64,000 nucleotides of DNA from Gammaproteobacteria bacterium (lineage in GTDB: Bacteria; Pseudomonadota; Gammaproteobacteria; Pseudomonadales; Azotimanducaceae), in contig JAPPGK010000101.1 in assembly GCA_028821405.1 (NCBI GenBank), forward strand, positions 1-64,000, read 5' to 3'. A model generated the notes under the pieces. It had not been told where the DNA came from. It was given only the letters and a program-made list of their open reading frames with translations, and made no database searches. Made by a program: the position numbers and the translations under genes. Below, one piece after another: positions 9,118 through 58,479 of this stretch. Every line of letters begins with the position of its first letter. Position 1 is the stretch's first letter.

Positions 9118-9840
9118 CTAGGCCACGCGATAGACGGGCGGTGGGAACTCCCTTATCTCGCTGATGGTCAACACCCTGCGTACGCTGGCACCGTCCCAGC
9201 AATAGCGGAATTGCGCATTGCGGGCTGGAATCGATACCGCGGCTGGTCGGAATGCGCCGATGCACTCGCCGCCCGGACGCCTGGCGCTGGGATAGACGAG
9301 ACCCCAAGCTCCGGCGGCGTGACGTTCGCGGCCGAATGCCTGGCAAATGGGCCAAGTCTCGACGGGCCGTTGTCGAAGATGCCCGTAGGCATCACCTCGT
9401 AGGTCTTCCAAGGGTTTCTGCACCTCGCCGACGTAACTCACCATGTCGAACTCGATGGGATCCTCGTCGGTCGCGTCTAGGTGTCGCTCGGCGTGGAAGA
9501 CCGTCTCCGCGATCGCGGTTTCCGTGTCGAGGGCCGCGTAGAGCACGCCAAAGGAACCGTCGCTGAAACGACTTGGCTGTCCCAAAGCCCTGAACGGCGC
9601 CATGCGTACCGCGGCCTCGGGTTCCTGCGGGAGGGGCCGCGAATCCGAGATCAGTGCGTCGGTGCCTATCGCCATGACTTGCCGGGCCGCCTCTCGATCA
9701 TCGGGGTTGGCGAAGACCTCGGCGAGTGGCCGGTGACCTGGTGCCCGGACGATCCGGGTCCACGGTCGTCGGACCACGTCGAGGCTTAGGGAAGGTCTGA
9801 ACAAGACCTTCCCTAGCGCGGCACAGGGATGTGCCGCCAA
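9118..9840 (-). CDS. RES domain protein (predicted toxin of a RES/Xre TA module); 5' end altered by repeat insertion
   Basis: SRFSDGSFGVLYAALDTETAIAETVFHAERHL RES core. The first ~18 codons of the ORF are encoded by the repeat element. Confidence 0.85.
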   Translation of the reverse strand: MAAHPCAALGKVLFRPSLSLDVVRRPWTRIVRAPGHRPLAEVFANPDDREAARQVMAIGTDALISDSRPLPQEPEAAVRMAPFRALGQPSRFSDGSFGVLYAALDTETAIAETVFHAERHLDATDEDPIEFDMVSYVGEVQKPLEDLRGDAYGHLRQRPVETWPICQAFGRERHAAGAWGLVYPSARRPGGECIGAFRPAAVSIPARNAQFRYCWDGASVRRVLTISEIREFPPPVYRVA

Positions 9841-9928
9841 ATTCGATGGCGTAAGCCATTGAATTTGCGAGCGAAACTATTTGTTTCGCTACTGTTCAAG
9901 TCCAGGGACGGACTTGAACAGAGGTTTC
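9790..9928 (+). repeat. 139-bp multi-hairpin MITE-like element, copy A
   Basis: Identical to the reverse complement of 58291-58429; flanked by TTAG (9786-9789 and 9929-9932); five tandem stem-loops at 9787-9815, 9818-9837, 9839-9866, 9870-9890, 9892-9921. Confidence 0.9.
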
Positions 9929-9943
9929 TTAGAGGTGGATCGT

Positions 9944-10288
9944 TCAGGCAATCCACGATTCCAGCAGCCGTCGAACCTGGTAGAGGTGTTCGACACGACC
10001 GAGCAACATGACGTCGAGCGCCGACCGGCCACCAAACGTCTCATTGGGACGCTTCACCCACGCGTTGGCTCGCTCCGGAATCGGAAGCAGTACGTGCGTT
10101 GCATCTCGGATACCACTCAACACGCTGATCCGCTCCAACGTGTCATGGGGAAGATGGGCGATGTGACCGGATCGCCAGCGATAGAAGGTCCGTTCGCTCG
10201 GCGCCCCGAGCAGCGTGATCTGCTGGTTTCGGTTCAGCCCCCACTCCTCGGCGAGGCGGAAGAACATCTTGGTGGCCACGTTATTCAT
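9944..10288 (-). CDS. Xre/MbcA/ParS-type antitoxin (DUF2384-like) of the RES module
   Basis: MNNVATKMFFRLAEEWGLNRNQQITLLGAPSERTFYRWRSG...ERISVLSGI...WVKRPNETFGGRSALDVMLLGRVEHLYQVRRLLESWIA. The ORF is open to 10354, so the start is uncertain. Confidence 0.85.
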   Translation of the reverse strand: MNNVATKMFFRLAEEWGLNRNQQITLLGAPSERTFYRWRSGHIAHLPHDTLERISVLSGIRDATHVLLPIPERANAWVKRPNETFGGRSALDVMLLGRVEHLYQVRRLLESWIA

Positions 10289-10337
10289 TCGGGATCGGTC
10301 ATCGACTCCCGCGCGCGATCTTGACGAGCCAGTTGCC

Positions 10338-10384
10338 ATTGGGTCTTGTGCCAATATGCGGCCTTGGGTCTATTTTCTGCCAAT
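10338..10384. promoter_or_regulatory. Repeated ATTGG/CCAAT-type dyads upstream of the antitoxin gene
   Basis: ATTGGGTCTTGTGCCAAT (10338-10355) and CTTGGGTCTATTTTCTGCCAAT (10363-10384). Confidence 0.45.
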
Positions 10385-57716: not shown

Positions 57717-57822
57717 CGCCATTCGGCGGCGCCTTGACGGTTCCTTAGCGCGGGTCTTCGATGACCGGAACCCGGCCGTTCCGACCGAGTCAAAGTGGGT
57801 GTTGCGACGATCGGAGTTGACG

Positions 57823-58290
57823 ATGGTGAACGATGGCTACATGCGCCGGGCGGTTGAACTCGCCCGCGAGGGCGTGGAGCAGGGTCGCGGCGGGCCGTTC
57901 GGCGCCGTCGTCGTCAAGGACGGTGTCGTCGTAGGGGAAGGCTCGAACGAAGTCCTGATGTCCCAGGATCCGACATGCCACGCGGAGATGGTCGCCATCC
58001 GGGATGCCAGCCGCCGACTCGGATCGTTTTGCCTTGCCGGGTGCGAGATCTACGCGAGTTCGGAACCGTGTCCCATGTGCCTGGGCGCGATCTACTGGTC
58101 ACGCATCGACAGGGTCTGCTTCGCCAATGGCCGGGATGTCGCGGCGTCCCACGGTTTCTTGGACGAGTTCATCTACGACGAACTTGCCAAGCTGCCCGAC
58201 GCGAGAGACTTGACGATGGTCCGCGTACCGTCGCCCGGCGCCGAGGAACCGTTTGCCGCTTGGGAGCGCAAACACGCGACCAACTACTAG
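57823..58290 (+). CDS. Nucleoside deaminase (guanine deaminase-like)
   Basis: CHAEMVAIRDA and EPCPMCLGAIYWSRI zinc motifs. Confidence 0.9.
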   Translation: MVNDGYMRRAVELAREGVEQGRGGPFGAVVVKDGVVVGEGSNEVLMSQDPTCHAEMVAIRDASRRLGSFCLAGCEIYASSEPCPMCLGAIYWSRIDRVCFANGRDVAASHGFLDEFIYDELAKLPDARDLTMVRVPSPGAEEPFAAWERKHATNY

Positions 58291-58429
58291 GAAACCTCTG
58301 TTCAAGTCCGTCCCTGGACTTGAACAGTAGCGAAACAAATAGTTTCGCTCGCAAATTCAATGGCTTACGCCATCGAATTTGGCGGCACATCCCTGTGCCG
58401 CGCTAGGGAAGGTCTTGTTCAGACCTTCC
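58291..58429 (-). repeat. 139-bp multi-hairpin MITE-like element, copy B
   Basis: Reverse complement identical to 9790-9928; flanked by CTAG (58287-58290 and 58430-58433). The left CTAG contains the deaminase stop codon. Confidence 0.9.
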
Positions 58430-58479
58430 CTAGCACTCGCTCGTCGGGCAGTTTGGCAGCGACATCATCGCCAACTCCC

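Follow-up and report, generated by a model that had tools for sequence, protein, structure and literature searches.

A 139-bp element between the genes of an apparent toxin–antitoxin operon

The window, by which we mean the whole stretch of 64,000 nucleotides that was analysed, carries an RES-domain toxin gene (9118 to about 9777, − strand) and an Xre/MbcA/ParS-type antitoxin gene (9944–10354, − strand), and between them lies a repeated element, copy A, whose 139-bp body occupies 9790–9928 on the + strand as delimited from the sequence and from matches in the same genome. An apparent RES–Xre toxin–antitoxin operon is in this way split by 139 bp of hairpins. The second copy in the window, copy B, lies at 58291–58429 on the − strand. 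As the preliminary description had stated, 9790–9928 is identical to the reverse complement of 58291–58429 over all 139 bp, and the identity extends to 142 bp (9787–9928) because the TAG of the flanking tetranucleotide is common to both copies.

The TTAG/TTAG flanks reported earlier for copy A are confirmed by the sequence, with the left target-site duplication at 9786–9789 and the right one at 9929–9932. Copy B (58287–58433 with its flanks) sits between CTAG at 58287–58290 and a second CTAG at 58430–58433, and the TAG of the former is the stop codon of a deaminase gene (57799–58290, + strand). The left terminal inverted repeat, GGAAGGTCTGAACAAGACC (9790–9808, + strand), is an IS5-type end that matches a transposase-bearing end, TTAG-GGAAGGTCTGATTAAGTCC, in a congener; the right one, GAAACCTCTGTTCAAGTCC, is read on the − strand at 9910–9928. 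The element thus ends in GGAAGGTCTGAACAAG and GAAACCTCTGTTCAAG, which we take to resemble IS5 ends. Another dispersed repeat, of about 57 bp, stands at the start of the contig (window 1–54), where it breaks the assembly; it recurs at the ends of contigs C40, C77, C96 and C110 and at 115953–116009 of the same contig.

Predicted fold

Folding reproduces all five stems of the preliminary description on the + strand of copy A. Hairpin 1 (9787–9815) has a 12-bp stem that includes part of the duplication and a GAACA loop. Hairpin 2 (9818–9837), GCGGCAC-AGGGAT-GTGCCGC, is supported both by folding and by the masked-model search described below, and presents a CsrA/RsmA-type ANGGAN hexaloop at 9825–9830. 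Hairpin 3 (9838–9867), CAAATTCGATGGC-GTAA-GCCATTGAATTTG, contains a G·U pair that is conserved in the family alignment, and hairpin 4 (9870–9890), AGCGAAAC-TATTT-GTTTCGCT, is a shortened form found in this genome, the stem in most relatives being 11–13 bp long with the loop YCRCRY. Hairpin 5 (9892–9921), CTGTTCAAGTCC-AGGGAC-GGACTTGAACAG, presents a second ANGGAN hexaloop at 9904–9909. The corresponding loops of copy B lie at 58394–58389 and 58315–58310, and the terminal inverted repeats fall within hairpins 1 and 5. The minimum free energy predicted for 161 nt is −92.6 kcal/mol, compared with −44.9 ± 4.0 kcal/mol for dinucleotide shuffles (z = −11.8), and 0 of 200 shuffles folded as well. By eye, no U-run follows any of the hairpins, nor did we recognise a promoter inside the element.

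Across the family, the loop of hairpin 4 keeps roughly the form YCRCRY (CCACGC, TCACAC and TCGCAT, for example at L093, L095 and L149), and AAG is kept 3′ of the loop of hairpin 3; we recognised no known ligand for these conserved features of the two hairpins. At five loci from Pseudohongiella/Pseudomonadales metagenome-assembled genomes (MAGs; L103, L106, L136, L153 and L159), the loop of hairpin 3 holds an extra insert of 70–100 nt with hairpins of its own.

Copies, target sites and a matching transposase

The host genome (122 contigs, 4.77 Mb) contains 38 matches to the element, 29 of them full length and 95–100% identical. With their flanks the full copies measure 146–147 bp, and they contain neither an ORF nor a transposase gene. 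YTAG stands on both sides in 29 of 29; the left and right tetranucleotides are equal in 28 (25 CTAG/CTAG and, in either orientation, 3 TTAG/TTAG), and the remaining copy is mixed, CTAG/TTAG. Judged from the identical copies, the activity of the element is very recent. Partial copies often start or stop at hairpin boundaries, with hairpin 1 missing, hairpin 1 alone, or hairpins 1, 2 and 5 retained (G000:C11:159397-159508, C15:16759-16875, C21:13922-13987, C45:21172-21205 and C69:68484-68570), a pattern that suggests loss of whole hairpins.

We sought unoccupied sites by searching the joined flanks of the host's own copies against the genus. At one site (L022), which reads CTAG-element-CTAG in the host, three congeners (G002, G003 and G011) have a single CTAA with continuous flank homology, reading CCCCTAACC. 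At the site of copy B, congeners that lack the element have an intact deaminase coding end with the stop codon in the same place. In a congener that carries the element, an IS5-family transposase gene (NF033581, PF01609+PF05598) adjoins TTAG-GGAAGGTCTGATTAAGTCC (L216), the one end present, the other lying beyond the contig; a complete 1158-bp IS with TTAG/TTAG flanks and GGAACCTCTGATTAATTC ends is found in the same order (L215). On the combined evidence of the YTAG duplications, the uninterrupted site in relatives and the matching ends of IS5-family transposases, one in a congener and one elsewhere in the order, the 139-bp unit is a mobile IS5-type miniature inverted-repeat transposable element (MITE). 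The preliminary description had judged this plausible from a YTAR-type duplication and the terminus, and its reading is borne out by the 4-bp YTAG duplication, by the single, unduplicated site in relatives and by the same-ended transposases, as well as by the many further copies in related genomes.

A search of the 122-contig assembly, of a type that often misses multicopy insertion sequences, found no PF01609 gene in the host genome, and the end pattern matches only the MITEs there. The missing gene may reflect loss, mobilisation in trans or an assembly gap; a MITE need not share its genome with the cognate transposase, because it may be moved in trans or have been moved in the past.

Genome G009 holds a second MITE, about 150–165 bp long, that shares the CTAG duplication and the ends (GGGAAGCTCTGAACAAG) but has a different interior (GTAGGGGCGACCCTTGTGGTCGCCC), at L196:458-609, L200:317-483, L201:263-414 and L207:2900-3065; its hairpins have no ANGGAN-type loops. 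One transposase probably moves both MITEs. The copy at L050 (G059:C37) lies between ATAA and ATAA, and this change of flank is mirrored in the inner arm of its hairpin 1 (TAAGGAA/TTCCTTA); it looks as though template switching had rewritten the hairpin from the target site.

Insertion sites and orientation

In 15 of the 29 full copies in the host genome, the stop codon of a flanking ORF is the TAG or TAA of the duplicated YTAG. For comparison, 6 of the 40 CTAG sites in the window are stop codons. The choice of YTAG sites together with the loss of intragenic insertions would explain most of this preference for stop codons. Among 122 copies from many genomes, gene contexts are convergent in 30, tandem sense in 16, tandem antisense in 23 and divergent in 13, counts that rest on ORF-based gene calls and are approximate. 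Relative to tandem genes these 122 copies show no orientation bias (16 sense vs 23 antisense), so that systematic read-through in the sense of the GGA strand is not indicated, which argues against a simple 3′-UTR role.

Distribution of the family and covariation in its stems

BLAST finds diverged copies in three congeners and also in two other genera. A 28-base pattern built on hairpins 2 and 3 occurs in at least 100 stretches of public genome records among the matches listed, which come mostly from gammaproteobacterial MAGs, with one labelled Rhodospirillaceae. Our covariance model consists of hairpins 2–4, with the loop of hairpin 2 masked by N and hairpin 5 left out. Within the class it detects the element in 55 of 387 evenly drawn genomes and 41 of 289 genera, and in a sample of the phylum in 42 of 399 genomes, which mostly lie beyond the class, with a concentration in a single family (f250). 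A repeat present in about one in seven of the genomes sampled from the class is absent from Rfam.

Compensatory changes are abundant in the stems: positions pair in 88% of cases vs 77% after shuffling, and the covariation score is 0.311 vs 0.145, with 0 of 500 shuffles as high. The model was itself built from these sequences, which makes the result supporting rather than independent evidence. As far as the aligned copies tell, the fold is kept by compensatory change.

Tandem arrangements also occur. At L274 (G116:C1:2569000-2569600), three units of hairpins 2–5 repeat with a period of 124 bp and place seven GGA hairpins within about 500 nt, an array that, by analogy, looks like a CsrB-type sponge. 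Another pair of elements, 140 bp apart, is found on G266:C159.

ANGGAN loops as candidate CsrA/RsmA sites

Because the loop of hairpin 2 is masked in the search model and hairpin 5 is absent from it, the two loops provide an unbiased read-out of what the family conserves. In 27 genomes of the class, the successive positions of the hairpin 2 loop are A (27/27), N (17 G, 5 T, 3 C and 2 A), G (27), G (26), A (26) and N (14 T, 5 A, 4 G and 4 C). A-N-GGA-N stands in register in 26 of the 27, and a one-base deletion leaves A-GGA in the other; GGA stands in or at the loop of hairpin 5 in 26 of the 27. Among 26 loci that the phylum search yielded, 25 of which lie beyond the class, ANGGAN is found in hairpin 2 of 22 (two of which have a T-A closing pair and were read from the sequence, the script counting C-G closure only) and GGA in hairpin 5 of 21, on hairpin 2 stems as different as GCAGGCC, ACGGCCC, GCGGGGC and CCGAAAT.

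The SELEX consensus for CsrA is RUACARGGAUGU, in which ACA and GGA are invariant and which usually lies in a hairpin loop of six bases (PMC7652899). The ANGGAN loops that RsmN and RsmE bind stand above a G-C pair (PMC3791407). Hairpin 2 of the element, ACANGGANGU, matches the SELEX site ACARGGAUGU. The window contains 207 hairpins with a 7-bp stem and a hexaloop, and ANGGAN occurs in only four of them, hairpins 2 and 5 of both copies. The key feature of the element, missed by the preliminary description, is probably the C-ANGGAN-G of hairpins 2 and 5, which is the recognition loop of CsrA/RsmA. That description had pointed instead to GNRA-type tetraloops, an argument that fails because the first of the four positions of GGGA takes all four bases across the family; we rejected this reading in favour of the family motif ANGGAN, hairpin 2 being better read as the hexaloop AGGGAT closed by C-G.

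Several observations count against the CsrA reading, among them the lack of orientation bias and of a promoter recognised by eye within the element. The element's stems, at 7–8 bp, are longer than those of most SELEX hairpins, and the loops of hairpins 3 and 4, which are unrelated to CsrA, are partly conserved too, which points to some constraint on, or shared descent of, the whole sequence. A comparison with Rfam gave nothing at the gathering threshold and only sub-threshold matches to RsmV (E 0.055–0.55); membership of the CsrB/RsmY/RsmZ/RsmV clan was rejected on the lack of a match above threshold.

Strand asymmetry and host CsrA

We counted wobble pairs in one element per genome, scoring G·T and A·C alike. 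Read on the GGA strand, G·T outnumbers A·C by 68 to 15 in 47 genomes, with 32 genomes favouring G·T and 5 favouring A·C. For the 22 genomes that were gathered without reference to structure the counts are 36 and 8, and with three positions of hairpin 3 (4–6) removed from this structure-blind set they are 19 and 8 (p = 0.05). This bias in the family's sequences supports the view that selection acts on the GGA strand in single-stranded form, for which RNA is the simplest candidate and single-stranded DNA the alternative. What the earlier suggestion that the element may act as a structured RNA gains from this is a direction only: the wobble asymmetry and the conserved loops both point to the + strand of the element.

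In the class, csrA is found in 51 of 55 carriers vs 281 of 332 non-carriers, and the four carriers with no CsrA match are MAGs of 75–95% completeness. Among further carriers CsrA is found in 45 of 47, including all 30 of good quality. This co-occurrence is weak evidence, since CsrA is common in the class anyway. The predicted CsrA of the host is canonical; over 58 residues it is almost the same as that of E. coli, with L4 and R44 retained.

A candidate mobile CsrA-binding RNA and its alternatives

We consider it fairly likely that the element is a non-autonomous IS5-type MITE with a structured RNA as its cargo, and that two of the five stem-loops of this RNA carry the CsrA/RsmA loop C-ANGGAN-G. 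From its sequence, the RNA payload looks made to bind CsrA/RsmA. Transcription would reach the element from an adjacent gene by read-through or would start at a promoter that the insertion site provides, and the RNA would bind CsrA dimers through two sites about 78 nt apart, acting as a dispersed CsrA decoy or as a local CsrA-recruiting UTR module. Selection at the level of the element or of the host may keep both loops intact during spread. The function could lie in the decoy, in local UTR control or in help to the element itself, or else in a role at the DNA level.

The chief alternative, which we regard as unlikely though worth weighing, is an ordinary IS5 MITE, with stem-loops that either serve transposition or arise as by-products of palindromes and with ANGGAN loops that are inherited and have no role in CsrA binding. 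The position of the terminal inverted repeats inside hairpins 1 and 5 would fit this, as would copies that land anywhere with no orientation bias and the conservation of hairpins 3 and 4 alongside the others. Template switching at quasi-palindromes can, moreover, homogenise stems and so mimic compensation, and the L050 copy, in which the inner arm of hairpin 1 follows a changed YTAR flank, would be of this kind. Template switching does not protect loops, however, and it is in the loops that A and GGA are fixed, against variation across genera and classes at both N positions and in the stems. The ordinary-MITE account also leaves aside the favouring of one strand by wobble pairs, and such loops are missing from the hairpins of the other, same-ended MITE of G009.

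In our judgement it is improbable that the structured RNA has a function apart from CsrA, for example as a 3′-UTR stabiliser or, in the manner of BIMEs, as an insulator or bidirectional terminator where genes converge. Convergent contexts are indeed the commonest (30 vs 13 divergent), the structures are very stable, and a flanking ORF ends in the duplicated site of 15 of the host's 29 copies. Yet the lack of a U-run after any hairpin means that none is an intrinsic terminator, the stop-codon preference stems largely from YTAG targeting and the loss of intragenic insertions (cf. 6 of 40 CTAG sites), and the fixed ANGGAN loops on one strand go unexplained. A REP/RAYT-type element or an integron attC-like site moved as single-stranded DNA, which the strand-specific hairpins adjoining a conserved tetranucleotide and the G·T preference (equally fitting for a single DNA strand) might recall, is highly implausible given terminal inverted repeats at both ends, the duplicated YTAG, DDE (IS5) transposases with the same ends and the single site left in relatives.

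If the CsrA/RsmA reading is right, it would mean that transposons distribute binding sites for a highly connected bacterial post-transcriptional regulator, would give mobile DNA a direct route to rewire or buffer the Csr/Rsm network, and would explain why the intricate fold of a noncoding element is kept over long evolutionary distances. We are evenly divided on a broader proposal, that a phylum-wide transposable-element family preserves a regulator-binding RNA, each transposition scattering paired CsrA/RsmA hairpins, with copy number and insertion site tuning the free pool of CsrA/RsmA or its local action, so that the element would amount to a mobile sponge for CsrA or a plug-in CsrA module. 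The CsrA reading yields a simple prediction, namely GGA-dependent binding of CsrA.

Comparison with known systems

Searches of the open-access literature on CsrA together with MITEs, REPs or multicopy repeats turned up no description of the element, which is no proof of novelty, and its ends, sought there as letter strings, return chance primer matches only. CsrA goes unmentioned in a 2024 review of prokaryotic MITEs, which does mention sRNAs encoded by MITEs in Coxiella (PMC10969869), and Alcanivorax CsrR1 and CsrR2 are ordinary single-locus CsrA sRNAs (PMC9788540).

REP/BIME elements resemble the element as hairpins dispersed in intergenic, often 3′, regions, but the element has terminal inverted repeats and a target duplication and is linked to an IS5-type transposase, where those elements have a Y1 RAYT; the target duplication argues against placing it in the REP/RAYT group. 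With IS5-family MITEs (IS5/IS5_4 transposase group) it shares its shortness, the lack of an ORF, IS5-like ends (GGAAGGT..GAACAAG), a YTAR-type 4-bp duplication, high copy number and a same-ended IS5-family transposase in relatives. It differs from them in its five serial hairpins with loop motifs fixed across genera and classes, where the interior of ordinary MITEs holds a single dyad or no structure that is conserved. The MITE-derived sRNAs of Coxiella burnetii (QMITE1/2; Cbsr3, Cbsr13 and Cbsr16) resemble its predicted RNA as stable folded products of a non-autonomous element, although their duplications and ends are different and CsrA is unmentioned (PMC5896051, PMC10969869).

Compared with the CsrB/C, RsmX/Y/Z and RsmV sRNAs, the element is dispersed, mobile and multicopy, normally has two GGA hairpins per unit, and is without a recognised promoter or terminator of its own and without an above-threshold Rfam match. 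Yet it resembles them in its several stem-loops, in the ANGGA in its loops and in its csrA-bearing hosts, and at least two ANGGA motifs in hairpin loops, a trait of sRNAs that antagonise CsrA/RsmA, are found in its hairpins 2 and 5.
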